Origin: a virus
Strand: one strand, 5' to 3'
Virus record (IMG/VR): IMGVR_UViG_3300025141_014189
Coordinates: 1-24,363 of that record
Length of the DNA: 24,363 bases
The notes below the pieces were generated by a model that saw only the letters and a list, made by a program, of their open reading frames with translations, was not told the DNA's origin and did no database searches. Shown here piece by piece: positions 356 to 9,988 of the stretch. Positions within the stretch are counted from its first letter, which is position 1, and each line of letters begins with the position of its first letter. Made by a program: the position numbers and the translations under genes.

Positions 356-1336
356 CTAAATGTTTGAGTTATAAAACTTTGTAAGATCAATGCCTTCTTT
401 CTCAGCCCTATTTAAATGAACTAAAGGATTATAGTCTAGATCTGATGATACGATCGAATTATAGACAAGGTGTATCCCATCACGCAAAGATATTTTGGGA
501 GACCAGCCTGTGTCGTTTCTAAACTTTTCAGAACTCAACATATGATTCCCCAAATAGTCTGTCTCTGGGTGCCATTGAATTGTCCCACTTATTTTTGAGC
601 TCACTATCTCAGACAGCATCTCAACAATCTTTAGGGTCACATAAGGAGTCTCTGCAGCGATGTTGTAATCTTTGCCCCACAGCCCTTTCTCACATCCTAA
701 AACAACACCATTACAAAAGTCACTTACGTGAAGATAGTCTTTTATTTTGCTTGGATTTAAAAACATCGGTAGACTATCATGATTATTGAGATAAGAATAG
801 ATCGATTTGGCAATCAACGAATTCATATCACCTTCACCACCGTAGGCAAAAAGAGGTCGAGTAACCAACCAATCTTTGGCATGACTTGTTATTACGTGTT
901 CACCTGCCATTTTTTGACTCCCATAAAAAGTCATAGGCTTAATAGAAGACGTCTCTGTAATTTTTTCTGTTTGATACTTTGCAGTATCATAGATGACTGT
1001 TGTTCCCATGTAACATATAGGAACACCTGAAATCTTGCTAGCCATAGCAAGATTATATGACCCTACAACATTTGTAAGAGAAGACTCTTTCGGATTTAGT
1101 GCAACGACATCAGTTCCTACAACAGCAGCATTGTGTACAACTACATCAACATTCAAATTCTTTAAATGCCATGCCCAAACTTCTGCAGAGTTCCTGTGTA
1201 CGCATACCTCGCCTGTTGTCTGCAGTTTGAGAATATTAGCATCTTCAATGTAAACTACAGTATGACCTGCTTTTTCAAACGATAGTGCTAAATTGCGTGC
1301 GATAAATCCAGATTCGCCCGTGATAAGAATTCTCAT
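356..1336 (-). CDS. NAD(P)-dependent epimerase/dehydratase (extended SDR)
   Basis: A 326-residue protein of usual length for sugar-nucleotide epimerases, dehydratases and reductases. It opens with the Rossmann strand MRILITGESGFIA, the GxxGxxA dinucleotide-binding motif. A serine/threonine-rich active-site strand (MGTTVIYD, about residue 110) is followed by the catalytic YxxxK as Y138-GSQ-K142. The C-terminal half should bind a nucleotide-sugar, but the substrate cannot be read from sequence. The ATG lies five bases after the stop of the deoxyribosyltransferase-like gene, so the two are probably cotranscribed, and a terminator follows. Phages use such enzymes to make sugars for surface or DNA decoration, or to alter host polysaccharide. 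No glycosyltransferase is visible in this window, so its partner is unknown. Confidence 0.88.
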   Translation of the reverse strand: MRILITGESGFIARNLALSFEKAGHTVVYIEDANILKLQTTGEVCVHRNSAEVWAWHLKNLNVDVVVHNAAVVGTDVVALNPKESSLTNVVGSYNLAMASKISGVPICYMGTTVIYDTAKYQTEKITETSSIKPMTFYGSQKMAGEHVITSHAKDWLVTRPLFAYGGEGDMNSLIAKSIYSYLNNHDSLPMFLNPSKIKDYLHVSDFCNGVVLGCEKGLWGKDYNIAAETPYVTLKIVEMLSEIVSSKISGTIQWHPETDYLGNHMLSSEKFRNDTGWSPKISLRDGIHLVYNSIVSSDLDYNPLVHLNRAEKEGIDLTKFYNSNI

Positions 1337-1341
1337 AAGAT

Positions 1342-1854
1342 CTACTCGATAGATTTGTCGTAAGGTTCTACAATAAGCTGTCCTAATTCATGACATCTAT
1401 TGAGATAATCCTCAAGGTCTTCGAAGGATGTACAAACCTTAACACCACTTCGAGCCAACATCAAATTAAATTTGGCACCTTCCGGGAGACCTGCACAAAA
1501 GTATATAATTGGTTTCTGATGTGCAAAGGCAAACCCTGCTTCCCAAATTGTCCCGATATCTTTATCTCTTGTATTTACCAACAAAAAATCTGAAGTTGCA
1601 ATGTGCTCAAGATTTCCTCTAAAGGTTGCTGTCTGTACTTCTTCAGATGCATCTGGTGGGCAAACAAATATTCTTCTTGGGCTTGCCAGGTCGATCCACT
1701 CCCTGCTATCGAATACTCCTTCAAGCATTGTCAACTCTTCAGCAGCTGCTGGACTAAACCATCCAGAAGCAAGATATACTTTTACTTTTGGGATCCTTTC
1801 GGATGTTACTTCTTCTCGATCTCTATTGTTTTGTGTTGTTTCTTCAGTTAACAT
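1342..1854 (-). CDS. Nucleoside 2-deoxyribosyltransferase-like protein
   Basis: About 170 residues. The chosen start is the ATG at 1854, because AGGA lies seven bases upstream and overlaps the thyX stop; a longer frame from 1908 has no ribosome-binding site and would overlap thyX by 47 bases. The N-terminal 20 residues are polar. Then comes a Rossmann-like strand KVKVYLASGWFS (residues 24-34), the usual opening of this family, and later LLVNTRDKDIGTIWEAGFAFA (91-111), matching the D.GT..E.G.A segment with the probable catalytic Glu105. Family members swap the base on 2'-deoxyribonucleosides or hydrolyse deoxynucleoside monophosphates. Placement directly after ThyX and a nucleotide phosphatase fusion suggests work on the deoxynucleotide pool. 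The exact substrate is unknown, and a related hydrolase is possible. Confidence 0.75.
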   Translation of the reverse strand: MLTEETTQNNRDREEVTSERIPKVKVYLASGWFSPAAAEELTMLEGVFDSREWIDLASPRRIFVCPPDASEEVQTATFRGNLEHIATSDFLLVNTRDKDIGTIWEAGFAFAHQKPIIYFCAGLPEGAKFNLMLARSGVKVCTSFEDLEDYLNRCHELGQLIVEPYDKSIE

Positions 1855-1861
1855 TTTTTTC

Positions 1862-2836
1862 CTATTCATTTTCCAGGGTGTAGTTGTTTTTAAGTTGATT
1901 AAATTCACTCATAAGATCTCTCCACATTGTAGTGAAGACTTTTTCTCCCATCCCATGAGTTCCGTTAAGATCTTCTCGCCGACCTTGATAGATGGTATCT
2001 TGAGGATGATAATCAAATGTGTCATTCTTGTCTTCAGGCCAGTAAAGATTAGTACCTCGACTAATCCACTTATCTCCCTCTTTTATTCTGAATGTTTTGA
2101 TATAGTGTACATCTGGCGCATTAAAATTAAAAACTTGTGTTAACTCTGGGATTGCCTTACATGCCTCTATCGCCATTCGTGCAGCCAAAATATTATCAGC
2201 AGCCGGCTGAATCTGCACATCTTGACGTTGTCTGACAAATCCGATAAGATCCTTGAGGTTCAGTCTCATATAATAAAAAGACGTCATACACTTAGGGAGA
2301 ATCATTCTGGCGTCCATCATTGATATAACTTTGGAATCAGTCATTTCTGCATATAGCTGTTTTGATTCTTCAACAAGTTTACACCATCTTTCTAGAAAGT
2401 CCGGAGAGTTTTCTACAGACTCAGGCACAACTGCAGGATCATCTCGAAGATCTCTGTCACCTGTGCACTGTGCGGCAAAGGAGCCGGCACGGTGTCTAAT
2501 AATGTGTGTTACTTCCTGAAAAGAAAGACCTGATAGTCTGAATGTGAATCCTAAGCATTCCATCGGCGTCGGCAACGCACGAAACTGCATGACATCGAGA
2601 AGATTCTTACTCTTAATTTTAGGATCGACTCCGGTTGAGGAGACATCTTGTGGATTGTCCGCCCAAGTCGCCTTTACATAATGCCACGCTACATCCCTTG
2701 CCTGTTCTGATGTGGGTGCATCAATCAGCTCTACTGTAAGTGCCTTAAGATTGTTTTGATATTGTGTTGTCGGCTCGCGGCCGAACTTAAGCTCCATTGG
2801 GAGCTCAATAGGTTCCAAGTCAGTATTTTGTGGCAT
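1862..2836 (-). CDS. thyX: Flavin-dependent thymidylate synthase ThyX
   Basis: 324 residues from the ATG at 2836, which has a strong GGAGG eight bases upstream; an upstream in-frame start near 2911 is unlikely. ThyX converts dUMP to dTMP with methylene-tetrahydrofolate, FAD and NADPH. The ThyX signature is present but altered: RHR at 114-116, then AGSFAAQ, then CTGDR. The canonical form is RHR, seven residues, S-x-R, so the activating serine position is Cys124 and the arginine is displaced by two residues. A second conserved segment, ARMILPKCMTSF (about 176-187), and the later arginine/glutamine-rich helix with FVRQRQDVQIQ (200-210) support the family. The protein is longer than typical ThyX (about 220-250 residues), with extensions at both ends. 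It works naturally with the dUTPases in this window. Confidence 0.88.
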   Translation of the reverse strand: MPQNTDLEPIELPMELKFGREPTTQYQNNLKALTVELIDAPTSEQARDVAWHYVKATWADNPQDVSSTGVDPKIKSKNLLDVMQFRALPTPMECLGFTFRLSGLSFQEVTHIIRHRAGSFAAQCTGDRDLRDDPAVVPESVENSPDFLERWCKLVEESKQLYAEMTDSKVISMMDARMILPKCMTSFYYMRLNLKDLIGFVRQRQDVQIQPAADNILAARMAIEACKAIPELTQVFNFNAPDVHYIKTFRIKEGDKWISRGTNLYWPEDKNDTFDYHPQDTIYQGRREDLNGTHGMGEKVFTTMWRDLMSEFNQLKNNYTLENE

Positions 2837-2867
2837 TGTTTCCTCCGTGCCGATTAATAAAGAAATA

Positions 2868-3116
2868 TTAGATACGTTGTTTGAGTTGTTCAAGTAAATC
2901 ATCTGTAGCATTTCGATAGCCTAGTCGATTAAATGCTGTGTCTCCCATGCTCATCCACAAAGAAAACAAAAAATCATCGTATACATCAACAAGTCTCTCT
3001 GCAACGTGACTTGGAATACTTTCGACAGTATGTGGGCCATCTCCTAGGTTTCCTTCTAAACGACTCTCCACAATCTTACTCAACCTCTTGAGGCAATAGT
3101 CCCTTGATAATTCCAC
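2868..3116 (-). CDS. Hypothetical small protein
   Basis: 82 residues from a GTG start at 3114-3116, chosen because GGAGG sits exactly six bases upstream, inside the end of the preceding fusion gene (41-base overlap). I do not recognise the family. The protein is mixed charged and helical in appearance, with a basic N-terminus (residues about 5-16), a GDGPHT turn and a middle part containing DVYDDFLFSLWMSMGD. There is no signal peptide and no cysteine cluster. It sits between the pyrophosphatase-HAD fusion and thyX with a 31-base gap to thyX, so it is expected to be cotranscribed with nucleotide-metabolism genes. The frame continues upstream through a TTG at 3140, but that codon lacks a ribosome-binding site. 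Confidence 0.6.
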   Translation of the reverse strand: MELSRDYCLKRLSKIVESRLEGNLGDGPHTVESIPSHVAERLVDVYDDFLFSLWMSMGDTAFNRLGYRNATDDLLEQLKQRI

Positions 3117-4023
3117 TGATATCCTCCGTTTCCCAATCAAATGTTATTATGTTTTCATCTTCCCAAACATCTTTATTGTATGCTCTTTTAGGCACTAGTA
3201 CAGGAATACCATGCTGAGCATATTCTGAAGCGTTCTTTGGCGAATCATCAACAGCGCAGACAATCTTTCCCTGATTGAAAAAATCCTTATCAGACAACCA
3301 CCTGTACTTTTCTGCATCTAAAGCTACTGAGTTGTATGGAATCTTTGTTTTTTCTAGCCACAAATAAGTGTCATATAGACATTTTAGATTTTCCTTGGGA
3401 CGAGCTGTCAAAAGGTGAATCCAGAAGCCCGAGTCTTGCAAAGTCTTGATTGCTTCCACTACTAAATTATTTAAAGGAAGGGACCGGATACCCCCTTCTT
3501 TAATGAAAATCATGTATGCTTCTTCAATAGAAATGTCACCTACACTTCCCTGAACATAATAGCTGGGGTCTTCAACGTCGAGTGTTACATCAAACTTTGT
3601 CTTTACCCACGAAAAGAAACCTTCTCTAAATCTCGCCAAGACGTCGTCAATATCAACAACAACGACAGGTTGTCCGGACCAATTTTGAATTCCCCTGGTT
3701 TCTCTATCCCACAAAAAAGCCTCTCTAGACTCATAAGCATCCAGAAATTCGCCAGCTGTCATGTCCCATAGATTCAATGTTGCCAAGCAATAACGAATTA
3801 CGTCAACAGTCTCATATAGAATTTTTTGCCGTTTTGTTTCTGTTTTGATAGGCTGATGGTCTTTATAATAAACAGCATCAGCAAGGCATGAAACTTCAGA
3901 ATGAAGAGCTAGTGCAAAGATCTTGTGTCTCTCAACACGCTCCTCTTCTGTAAGAACTTCCGATTTAAAAAAAAGATCAGAAAATTTCTTTTGATCCTTC
4001 ATCATCTTTTCGAATTTACTCAT
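3076..4023 (-). CDS. All-alpha NTP pyrophosphatase (dUTPase/MazG-like) fused to HAD nucleotidase
   Basis: 315 residues with two domains. Residues 1-110 resemble the dimeric dUTPase/MazG all-alpha fold: LHSEVSCLADAVYY (Glu43) and ETVDVIRYCLATLNLW (Glu71, Asp74) give the two metal-binding ExxE/ExxD helices. Residues 118-310 are a HAD-family hydrolase: VVVDIDDVLARF (nucleophile Asp124, acid Asp126), LLTARP (Thr206, motif II), and AVDDSPKN (Asp259/Asp260, motif IV). This HAD type resembles phage and mitochondrial 5'-deoxynucleotidases. Together the two halves could take a dNTP to dNMP and on to deoxynucleoside. The ATG at 4023 has AAGGAG eleven bases upstream. It heads the run that includes thyX and the deoxyribosyltransferase-like gene. 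Domain calls are from motifs; the substrate is inferred. Confidence 0.75.
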   Translation of the reverse strand: MSKFEKMMKDQKKFSDLFFKSEVLTEEERVERHKIFALALHSEVSCLADAVYYKDHQPIKTETKRQKILYETVDVIRYCLATLNLWDMTAGEFLDAYESREAFLWDRETRGIQNWSGQPVVVVDIDDVLARFREGFFSWVKTKFDVTLDVEDPSYYVQGSVGDISIEEAYMIFIKEGGIRSLPLNNLVVEAIKTLQDSGFWIHLLTARPKENLKCLYDTYLWLEKTKIPYNSVALDAEKYRWLSDKDFFNQGKIVCAVDDSPKNASEYAQHGIPVLVPKRAYNKDVWEDENIITFDWETEDISGIIKGLLPQEVE

Positions 4024-4135: not shown

Positions 4136-4756
4136 ATGTACACAGCCGAAGAAGAAGTCATCAACTCTGCAACGCACTTTTTATCAGCGATTGCCTCTGC
4201 CCTCTTTACGATCCTTATAGTGGGTAATACGAGCTTGTCGGGCATGCAAACCCTCGGAATATTTTTAGTAGGTTTGACAGGAACCTGGACATTTTTATCT
4301 TCATATTTGTATCACTCTTCCAAGAAAAGTCATAAAAGAATCCGGAACCAAATCCTAGACAAATCTTCTATCTACATTATGATTGGAGGCAATGGCGCGG
4401 GTGTCTGTATGTTGAGCTCTTCGTCTGTAACATCACTAATATTCTGTTTACTCTTGGTATCTATCTCATGTCTTTTAGCAGCGAACTTTTGCCTAAAACC
4501 CAAAGTCACTGAGACTTTCACTCTTACATCGTATTTACTGCTAGGCTGGCTTGCAGTTATACCTGCATCTGGACTTTTAATGCCCAGTAAATTCACAGAT
4601 CTCCCCCAGCTTATTTTTCTTTTAGGCGGAGGTGTCGCTTATAGTTTAGGTGTGGTATTTTACGTGAGTGAAAAAAAATGGTACCACACTGTATGGCATG
4701 GATTTACTATGTTAGGCTTTGGCTTACATCTGGCAGGATGTTACTACTGTCTCTAG
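4136..4756 (+). CDS. Hemolysin III / PAQR-family membrane protein
   Basis: 206 residues, mostly hydrophobic, with about seven predicted membrane helices. Family motifs are in order: EEEVINSATHF (E, N10, H14) at the start, SSYLYHS with H60 in the second helix, LDKSSIYIMIGGNGAG (D75) and, near the end, WYHTVWHGF with H184 and H188. The conserved histidines and aspartate are the zinc ligands of the PAQR fold, whose bacterial members are called hemolysin III, YqfA or TrhA and act in membrane or lipid homeostasis. It is the only plus-strand gene here and ends on a CTAG shared with the opposing gene, so it looks like an added accessory gene (moron). No good Shine-Dalgarno is visible before the ATG. 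Cytolytic activity is not implied by the family name. Confidence 0.85.
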   Translation: MYTAEEEVINSATHFLSAIASALFTILIVGNTSLSGMQTLGIFLVGLTGTWTFLSSYLYHSSKKSHKRIRNQILDKSSIYIMIGGNGAGVCMLSSSSVTSLIFCLLLVSISCLLAANFCLKPKVTETFTLTSYLLLGWLAVIPASGLLMPSKFTDLPQLIFLLGGGVAYSLGVVFYVSEKKWYHTVWHGFTMLGFGLHLAGCYYCL

Positions 4757-5130
4757 TACCCATTTTTCAAACGACTGTGAATCTTCACATCTTTCTTAAC
4801 ATATGCGTCATAAAGATCGTCAGGAGATACTCCCACAAGAACAAGCATGCTTAAAAAATAATTGAAAGCATCAACCACTTCTTCTAGAAATTCATCCCTA
4901 TCTACTTCTGGTTTGTCTGTGTCTCTATGGGGTTTCCAGTTCTTGAGATGACCCAATGCTTCAAACATTTCTTCAACACCCTTAAGTGCTAAATCTCGTA
5001 TTACCTGCTGTGATTGTTTTGACGTAATATCAACAGGCCAGCTAGGATAAGTTCCAGGCTTAACTCTTTCAATACTTGCCATAAACTCTTTTCTCAGCAA
5101 GAACAAGCTATCAAGTTTATCATTACTCAT
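4753..5130 (-). CDS. All-alpha NTP pyrophosphatase (dimeric dUTPase/MazG-like)
   Basis: 125 residues. The core is two helices with metal-binding acids: LALKGVEEMFEALGHL (Glu53/Glu54) and EFLEEVVDAFNYFLSML (Glu83/Glu84 and Asp87), followed by GVSPDDLYDAYVKKDVKIHSRLKNGY, whose end (K..x.N..R...GY) matches phage dimeric dUTPases. Such enzymes cut dUTP, or another dNTP, to the monophosphate and pyrophosphate, protecting DNA from uracil and supplying dUMP to ThyX. Its start overlaps the preceding 73-aa gene by eight bases (ATGAGTAA), implying coupled translation. Its stop shares CTAG with the convergent hemolysin III gene. It is a second copy of the fold in the window, distinct from the N-terminal domain of the HAD fusion. 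Substrate could be dCTP rather than dUTP. Confidence 0.78.
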   Translation of the reverse strand: MSNDKLDSLFLLRKEFMASIERVKPGTYPSWPVDITSKQSQQVIRDLALKGVEEMFEALGHLKNWKPHRDTDKPEVDRDEFLEEVVDAFNYFLSMLVLVGVSPDDLYDAYVKKDVKIHSRLKNGY

Positions 5131-5354: not shown

Positions 5355-6161
5355 TTACTTTTGCTTATCAGGGGCCCAATGGGTTTTTCTACCATCGGGT
5401 GTTGAGGTTTTGATTACTCTGTTACCTTCTGCATCCATTTTACGATTATAACATAAAAATCGGCTGGAGTAATCCCCGGGCGCCCCAGAAAAATTCTTGT
5501 GTGTTAAAAAAGTTGCTCCCCCAAACTTATAAGATGTTTTCATAACATCTCTAATAGCTTCGTAAAGCAACAAAAGATCTATATCACTAATGTCAGATAC
5601 ATTTCGTCCTGGATTTATGCCAGCTAACCATAAAGACTCTGCTTTAATATAATTTCCTACGCCGGCGACGATACTTTGATTCATCAATACCTTTGTGATG
5701 TTCCATCCATCCTTCTTGCGTATTTTTTCCAAAAAATCATTTCCAGTAAAATTATCATCAAACATATCAGGTCCCAACTTTTCTAACTTTTTTTTAAGTT
5801 TATGCGGACCATAGACAAACTTTAAAGTTCCAAAATTTCTCTGGTCATTAAAGTAAACAAAACTATTGTCTTCCATTGTAAGCTGGACTCTAGAATGCTT
5901 TGTCTTCTTGACACTCCACTGACCTGTCATGCCTAACGTGGACCAGATATTGTTTCCGGAAGATGTCAAGATGTATAGAAACTTTCCGTGGACACCAACA
6001 CCTATAATTTTTGATGGCAGACTTTCTGTCATTAGATTAAATCCGTCAATAGGCTTCTTAGTATATCGTCCAGAAATTATCTCGACCCTCTTTAGTGTTT
6101 TGCCTGAGGTCATTTTTGCCAAGTCTTTTCCCATTTTTTTAACTTCGGGTCCTTCAGGCAT
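5355..6161 (-). CDS. Formamidopyrimidine-DNA glycosylase / endonuclease VIII family (zincless finger)
   Basis: 268 residues, the normal length for Fpg/Nei. It begins MPEGPEV, giving the catalytic Pro2 and Glu3 after Met removal. GKFLYIL (Lys60) is the conserved lysine strand, DQRNFGTLKF (about 106-115) is the strand that fills the gap left by the flipped base, and WNITKVLMNQSIVAGVGNYIKAE (153-175) is the helix-two-turn-helix with Asn170. The C-terminal finger keeps the DNA-contacting arginine (STPDGRKTH, Arg258) but has only one cysteine (Cys237) in place of the four zinc cysteines, so it is a zincless finger as in NEIL1 and some viral and plant members. It excises oxidised purines or pyrimidines. 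AAGGGTG precedes the ATG. Confidence 0.9.
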   Translation of the reverse strand: MPEGPEVKKMGKDLAKMTSGKTLKRVEIISGRYTKKPIDGFNLMTESLPSKIIGVGVHGKFLYILTSSGNNIWSTLGMTGQWSVKKTKHSRVQLTMEDNSFVYFNDQRNFGTLKFVYGPHKLKKKLEKLGPDMFDDNFTGNDFLEKIRKKDGWNITKVLMNQSIVAGVGNYIKAESLWLAGINPGRNVSDISDIDLLLLYEAIRDVMKTSYKFGGATFLTHKNFSGAPGDYSSRFLCYNRKMDAEGNRVIKTSTPDGRKTHWAPDKQK

Positions 6162-9385: not shown

Positions 9386-9988
9386 CTACTCTACTTCAAT
9401 ATTGACATCAACACTGATGCGCATAGAGGGTAATCTTAGATGATTTACCATACCATGTTTTTTAGCTTCTGCTGCATCCATGAACCAGTCTGCATGCTTT
9501 TTGTTAAAAACCTTCTTCTTGAAATAGTCGTCTTTTTTTCCACAGTTTCGTGCCATCATAGTAAAGATTTTTTCATCTAATCTTTCAGCTTCTTTAACAT
9601 CTGCTTTGAGTTCTTCAATTTTTCCATACCCGCCGCTAGACACATCATGAATCATAACCGTCGCATTAGGATCAGAAAATCGAAGGCCGTCTTCCCCAAA
9701 TGTTAAAAGAACTGCTCCACACGACATGGCTTTGCCTTCGACGACTGTGGCTACAGGAAGTTCTGCATCTTTTATGGCTGCGATCATTGACATCAAGGAG
9801 TACACCTCGCCGCCGTATGAATCAATAATAACAGGTATTACATTTTGTCCTGTATTATGTGCTTGTGCCATTTGTTGATGGAATTCTTTTGCTGATTTTT
9901 CATCAAACTTATTAACCCTGATGATTACGGGCTGCTTCCTTAATTCTACTTCTTTTATCAACGATGAGACTTTTGTCGTAAATTTCAT
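9386..9988 (-). CDS. ClpP-like serine protease
   Basis: 200 residues, typical ClpP length. Motifs run in order: IIDSYGGEVYS (oxyanion-hole Gly-Gly, 59-60), GKAMSCGAVLL with nucleophile Ser89, VMIHDVSSGG with catalytic His114, and HADWFMDAAEAKKHGMVN with the third member Asp167. So the Ser-His-Asp triad is complete. In phages ClpP-type enzymes serve either as prohead proteases or as proteases acting on host or phage proteins. Here it lies among replication and accessory genes rather than head genes. The gene starts at ATG 9988 and overlaps the preceding 60-aa membrane protein gene by four bases (ATGA), so translation is coupled. A 70-base gap follows before the Ntn-hydrolase. Confidence 0.88.
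   Translation of the reverse strand: MKFTTKVSSLIKEVELRKQPVIIRVNKFDEKSAKEFHQQMAQAHNTGQNVIPVIIDSYGGEVYSLMSMIAAIKDAELPVATVVEGKAMSCGAVLLTFGEDGLRFSDPNATVMIHDVSSGGYGKIEELKADVKEAERLDEKIFTMMARNCGKKDDYFKKKVFNKKHADWFMDAAEAKKHGMVNHLRLPSMRISVDVNIEVE

Follow-up and report, generated by a model that had tools for sequence, protein, structure and literature searches.

A phage MazG-HAD fusion protein as a candidate deoxyribonucleotidase in a viral gene cassette with a variant ThyX

Can a single phage protein take a dNTP all the way to a deoxynucleoside? The question is raised by an open reading frame at positions 3076 to 4023 (minus strand) of a 24,363-base virus record (the whole stretch analyzed, here called the window), where phage-type replication genes surround the locus. 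A preliminary description had read this frame as a MazG/dimeric dUTPase-type pyrophosphatase fused to a HAD phosphatase, with both sets of catalytic residues in place. The fusion itself proved real: the frame encodes 315 amino acids, and the opposite (plus) strand is stop-rich there. Since an orthologue is 69% identical and relatives turn up in 143 candidate viral stretches, the frame is not a chance occurrence, and the presence of relatives across many viral contigs likewise ruled out a chance fusion or a frameshift. Structure prediction and profile searches, both proposed earlier, matched the two folds, although in the window the Pfam NT5C score lay just under its cut-off (23.3 versus 24.8 bits) and dUTPase_2 was matched at an E value of 0.023.

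The two domains of the fusion protein

We found the C-terminal half (residues 118 to 310; positions 3094 to 3672, minus strand) to be a HAD domain, as had been described. The NT5C match in the window had an E value of 6.7e-5, and 43 of 52 relatives matched the same family at E ≤ 0.05 (best, 1.1e-10). The HAD set of DxD, T, K, and DD is complete: the nucleophile D124, the acid D126, T206, K239, and D259/D260 are invariant, together with R208, in 95/95 distinct relatives. An AlphaFold2 model of the fusion, computed from a 52-row alignment, reached a pLDDT of 94.3 and a pTM of 0.89. When PDB chains were compared by VIA-align, the top 14 rows were all 5'(3')-deoxyribonucleotidases (Z 15.6 to 16.5, 164 to 185 residues, 2.4 to 3.1 Å rmsd), two of them being designed esterases on a deoxyribonucleotidase scaffold, as their alignment to the same fold shows; the best match (Z 16.5) covered 184 residues, cap included, at 2.9 Å, and the next row was the T4 Pnkp phosphatase (Z 13.6).

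The HAD half thus resembles the 5'(3')-deoxyribonucleotidases (human mdN/cdN and Staphylococcus epidermidis 3bwv; NT5C) in its core and cap fold and in its catalytic residues, and these enzymes are its best structural match, but the phage protein has a MazG-like domain fused to it, its identity with them is about 20%, and its substrate is a prediction. The HAD fold is a poor predictor of substrate. Judged by its residues and fold, the HAD half very probably works as a phosphatase, and dNMP is the best guess at its substrate; it would be a deoxyribonucleoside-5'-monophosphate phosphatase of the NT5C/5'(3')-deoxyribonucleotidase type, in support of the dNMP-to-nucleoside step suggested earlier. 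Distant stand-alone HAD relatives occur in Streptomyces phage phiRKBJ001 (L004:7968-8624) and in Mycobacterium, Gordonia, and Nocardia phages, where their genes adjoin that of an oxidoreductase and lie close to DnaE.

The N-terminal half (residues 1 to 113; positions 3685 to 4023, minus strand) is an all-alpha domain of the NTP-pyrophosphatase fold. Its dUTPase_2 match reached 4.7e-7 in relatives, and when the domain was predicted alone, the top 27 structural rows all belonged to the NTP-PPase superfamily (MazG, HisE, dCTPase, and dimeric dUTPase), with best Z scores of 9.0 (88 residues, 4.5 Å) and 8.6 (82 residues, 3.0 Å). The fold assigned in the preliminary description to residues 1 to 110 therefore stands, but the metal-binding acids claimed for it are incomplete. 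The domain profile matched the Campylobacter jejuni dUTPase 1w2y (E 0.0011), which set the metal-ligand positions at 43, 46, 71, and 74; in place of the E-E-E-D of pyrophosphatases (ExxE...ExxD), the window carries E43-C46-E71-D74, so that the second glutamate of ExxE is a cysteine. In S-2L MazZ the equivalent of position 46, Glu38, binds two of the three metal ions (PMC8342488). Position 46 is nonacidic in most relatives and in all nine proteins of the window's own clade. Among the 95 relatives, four acids are kept in 21, three in 48, two in 19, and one in 7, at least one thus being absent in 74; 15 of the 21 four-acid proteins carry aspartate at position 46. Only 4 intact members were present in a first sample of 54, their number rising to 21 when a scan seeded with the fusion itself brought the sample to 95. 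Despite the acid loss, E43 and D74 (both nearly invariant), R77, Y78, and N84 are conserved, and for this reason we think that the domain retains some role. In the window's lineage it probably releases no pyrophosphate, and it probably serves in oligomerization, nucleotide sensing, or substrate presentation; since 21/95 proteins keep four acids, pyrophosphatase activity may survive in some relatives.

Neighboring genes and a variant ThyX

In the window the fusion lies in a minus-strand run that reads, in order, separate pyrophosphatase, fusion, small ORF, ThyX-like protein, deoxyribosyltransferase-like protein, and SDR protein. Its placement upstream of the ThyX and deoxyribosyltransferase-like genes had thus been correctly described for the minus strand, and dozens of viral contigs share this neighborhood. 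The small ORF (2868 to 3140, minus strand) overlaps the end of the fusion and is conserved only in some relatives. The separate pyrophosphatase (4753 to 5130, minus strand; 125 amino acids) is of the dUTPase_2/MazG-like type, scores 25.1 bits against a dUTPase_2 cut-off of 22.9, and has the complete EExxE...ExxD set, its metal acids being complete in 56/56 such proteins. Because the metal site of the fusion is broken, here and in most relatives, and a separate intact pyrophosphatase is encoded nearby, the claim that one protein leads from dNTP to deoxynucleoside is unsupported.

The ThyX-like gene (1862 to 2911, minus strand; real start probably near 2836) matches the Pfam Thy1 superfamily (3e-17) but scores far below the NCBIfam thyX equivalog cut-off (38.6 versus 87.9 bits). 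In this variant, which we call ThyX', the motif reads RHRAGSFAAQCTGDRD in the window and RHR[AG]G[ST]FAAQCTGDRD, invariantly, in the family. Compared with Thermotoga maritima ThyX, Ser88 is replaced by Cys, Arg90 by Gly, Tyr91 by Asp, and His53 by Cys, changes that are invariable or nearly so; the RHRx7S motif is absent, with Cys, Gly, and Asp at the positions of Ser88, Arg90, and Tyr91 in 67/67 proteins. Ser88 and Tyr91 are described as strictly conserved and critical in ThyX (PMC11940539, PMC8316439). A second, canonical-scoring ThyX coexists with ThyX' in 24/40 contigs, and RHRTWSYNEISRRY is the sequence of 29 second copies, near-duplicates counted, in the flanks retrieved; matches to ThyA, another possible source of dTMP, were found in just 2/47 records. 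Since Ser88 and Tyr91 are lost and a canonical-scoring ThyX coexists, ThyX' is unlikely to be an ordinary dTMP synthase: the neighbor belongs to the ThyX family, as had been stated, but not to the ordinary thymidylate synthases. A second noncanonical ThyX type, in which RGR replaces RHR (RGR..WAY...S), occupies the same slot of the cassette at L106:6987-7922 and L117:7157-8080 and in loci L150, L155, and L159.

The nucleoside 2-deoxyribosyltransferase-like protein (1342 to 1908, minus strand) was recognized by Pfam (3.9e-11) and by PDB 6evs (E 2.4e-8). The catalytic residues Y45 and E123, together with D117 and N148, are invariant in 64/64 marine proteins and in 6/6 proteins from loci with an HD protein (described below). 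D117 and N148 align with Asp92 and Asn123 of LlNDT, which we take to act at the 5'-OH. This 5'-side Asp/Asn pair is absent from DmtZ, a Z-DNA phage enzyme that acts on dNMPs (PMC12884076), and its presence here therefore favors use of nucleosides rather than dNMPs; a nucleoside-using transferase would in turn require a nucleotidase upstream. At L098:6551-7501 the transferase is fused to a thymidylate-kinase-like P-loop domain. Kinase-like genes of phrog_761 occur in 39/47 records, a family that also matches all control genomes. A looser member of the cassette is an extended SDR/nucleotide-sugar epimerase-like protein (356 to 1336, minus strand; Pfam Epimerase 9.3e-27).

Distribution of the cassette and of its HAD and HD proteins

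The intact pyrophosphatase, the fusion, the variant ThyX, and the deoxyribosyltransferase-like protein form a cassette. A scan seeded on ThyX' gave 80 viral loci, most with the same gene order, and a second scan, with the fusion as seed, likewise yielded 80, partly on the same contigs. Linkage was counted in those 65 of the fusion-seeded loci that have 3.5 kb or more of downstream sequence: all 65 contain a ThyX-family gene as well as the stand-alone pyrophosphatase, and 57 contain the deoxyribosyltransferase. The ThyX gene carried the AQCTGDR motif in 60 of these loci and was of the RGR type in the other five. The SDR/epimerase-like gene was found in 50 nonredundant ThyX'-seeded loci and, within 6 kb downstream, in 26/65 fusion-seeded ones. 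With the patterns used, two scans of bacterial and archaeal genomes returned no cellular relative of the fusion or of ThyX', although distant ones may exist, and by the searches run here the cassette is virus specific, occurring in viral collections only.

In some loci the transferase gene is closely followed by a gene for an HD protein, namely, in Geobacillus phage GR1, in five of six GR1-related contigs (L092 to L097; in the exception, L096, the region is incomplete), in Streptococcus phage GXN1, and in L098, where the genes for pyrophosphatase, transferase, HD protein, and ThyX' follow one another directly. GR1 also carries ThyX' and a kinase-like gene. Where tested, the HD protein matched Pfam YfbR-like (1.7e-19 in GR1 and 1.3e-20 in GXN1). 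No YfbR match was found in 15 fusion-bearing records scanned, in 22 records that lack a fusion locally the fusion profile detected only pyrophosphatase-like stretches, and the HAD fusion and the HD protein occur together in none of the records examined. This complementary distribution suggests that one step is filled by unrelated enzymes and is consistent with the HD protein being a nonorthologous replacement of the HAD nucleotidase, although the best PHROG of the GR1 protein is a dATP triphosphohydrolase, which makes a dNMP phosphatase role for it uncertain. Roughly a dozen relatives of low G+C content have pyrophosphatase, ThyX', and transferase, and neither nucleotidase was found in these partial contigs; the nucleotidase may thus be dispensable or encoded elsewhere.

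A candidate pathway and its alternatives

We infer the activities, substrates, order of steps, and purpose of the cassette from the folds, the residues kept and lost, the synteny, and the complementary HAD/HD distribution. The simplest interpretation is that the cassette edits the pool by way of dNTP, dNMP, and deoxynucleoside and that the fusion takes the dNMP step. The separate pyrophosphatase would convert dNTP to dNMP, the HAD domain of the fusion would remove the last phosphate to give a deoxynucleoside, the deoxyribosyltransferase-like protein would cleave or exchange the base, and ThyX' would perform nonstandard one-carbon chemistry on a nucleotide, nucleoside, or base, the purpose plausibly being to make or protect a noncanonical DNA base. 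With a probability of roughly 60%, then, we regard the fusion as a phage dNMP phosphatase with a pyrophosphatase-inactive N-terminal domain, acting in a cassette that edits the dNTP pool, plausibly for a noncanonical base; a modified DNA base is a plausible product. The preliminary description holds in general terms but errs on the metal site: its general idea, that a dNTP is drawn from the pool with an unusual base as one option, finds support, and its chemical claim moves from a bifunctional protein to the cassette. We also put forward, as a rather improbable reading, that the new base would be made at the level of the deoxynucleoside or free base, ThyX' (with Cys for Ser88 and without Tyr91 and Arg90) adding a one-carbon group to a substrate other than dUMP, the nucleotidase and deoxyribosyltransferase exchanging deoxyribose between canonical bases and modified ones, a dedicated P-loop kinase rephosphorylating the product, and the retired MazG domain acting as a dNTP sensor on the nucleotidase.

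Other readings concern the fusion itself. That it joins dNTP pyrophosphohydrolase and dNMP phosphatase in one chain would fit the presence of both folds, the 21 relatives with four acids, and the near invariance of E43 and D74, but the loss of a metal ligand led us to drop this as the default; the window has no second glutamate, the acid set has gaps in most relatives and must have switched between complete and incomplete at least 8 times on the tree, position 46 is one of the domain's more variable sites (rank 88 of 108), and a complete pyrophosphatase is nearby in every fusion-seeded locus counted, all of which makes such an enzyme quite improbable. It is possible, if doubtful, that the degenerate domain is instead a dNTP sensor gating the HAD half, so that the level of one dNTP would switch dNMP breakdown: E43, D74, R77, Y78, and N84 are conserved while the catalytic set is not, and the pTM of 0.89 suggests a fixed domain arrangement, but folding or dimerization would explain the conserved residues equally well. 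Least probable is a polynucleotide 3'-phosphatase or other DNA-end-repair phosphatase unrelated to nucleotide pools, to which a match to phrog_415 polynucleotide kinase (2.3e-10) and the structural match to T4 Pnkp would point; the match to nucleotidases is better and spans the entire domain (about 180 aligned residues, versus 128), the fusion is strictly linked to nucleotide enzymes, and its distribution is complementary to that of the YfbR-like HD protein.

The cassette as a whole might be an ordinary cluster controlling thymidylate and dUTP, made up of a dUTPase, a dUMP/dTMP phosphatase, and a dTMP synthase, with no unusual base involved. Its component families are indeed common ones, and no base-modification family is shared by all contigs (a glucosyltransferase in 4/47 records, PurA/PurZ in 5/47), yet the loss from ThyX' of residues critical in ThyX (PMC11940539, PMC8316439) and the coexisting canonical-scoring ThyX make this unlikely.

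Pool editing for a noncanonical base has counterparts in known phages. The dimeric dUTPase/MazG enzymes (C. jejuni 1w2y and S-2L MazZ) resemble residues 1 to 113 in fold and helix layout, including the 1w2y profile match, and differ in possessing the full metal-binding set, of which the window and most relatives have only part. Z-DNA phages (PurZ, DatZ, and MazZ; DmtZ and DutZ; PMC8342488, PMC12884076) likewise have a pool-editing cluster of pyrophosphohydrolase, NDT-family, and HD-family proteins, but the cassette described here is centered on a variant ThyX, and the 5' side of its transferase is of the nucleoside type, not the DmtZ type. No match to the PurA/PurZ family (PF00709) was found in the window, a 24-kb fragment, or in 42/47 records searched, many of them partial; with matches in just five (those of L015, L029, L037, L046, and L058), the Z-DNA pathway is an unlikely explanation. 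A shared DNA glucosyltransferase was also rejected, phrog_2888 being present in 4/47 records, all of the GR1 group; the GR1 phrog_2888 protein has no PDB relative by sequence, and its name of alpha-glucosyltransferase was therefore not relied upon.

The hydroxymethylases of hydroxymethyluracil-type phages are of the ThyA type and are not known to be of the ThyX type. The excerpts available for PhiW-14, SP-15, and CBA120 (PMC5977210, PMC3184105) describe dTTP removal and a phage dNMP kinase, which can be likened to the cassette, and, for SP-15, a thymidylate-synthase-like enzyme in addition to the ordinary one, which can be likened to ThyX' beside a canonical ThyX; these excerpts make no mention of a HAD fusion for the three phages.

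Phage pathways for nonstandard bases allow escape from restriction and yield useful enzymes, and those already known (Z-DNA and hydroxymethyluracil) have gene clusters of a similar kind. At the center of the present cassette stands a ThyX relative missing residues that ThyX requires, accompanied by a nucleotidase with a decayed pyrophosphatase partner that appears to have been exchanged elsewhere for an unrelated HD protein, as if the step were worth keeping. Our search of the open literature for the cassette and phage GR1 found nothing on the cassette. It is a definite candidate for a new nucleotide pathway, one that can be tested and has a cultured representative in GR1.

Three further genes were observed. 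An Fpg-type DNA glycosylase is encoded near the cassette in the window (5355 to 6161, minus strand), a small HhH-GPD glycosylase adjoins the cassette in relatives (L009:4281-4703), and positions 9386 to 9988 of the window (minus strand) encode a ClpP-like/head-maturation-protease-like serine protease.
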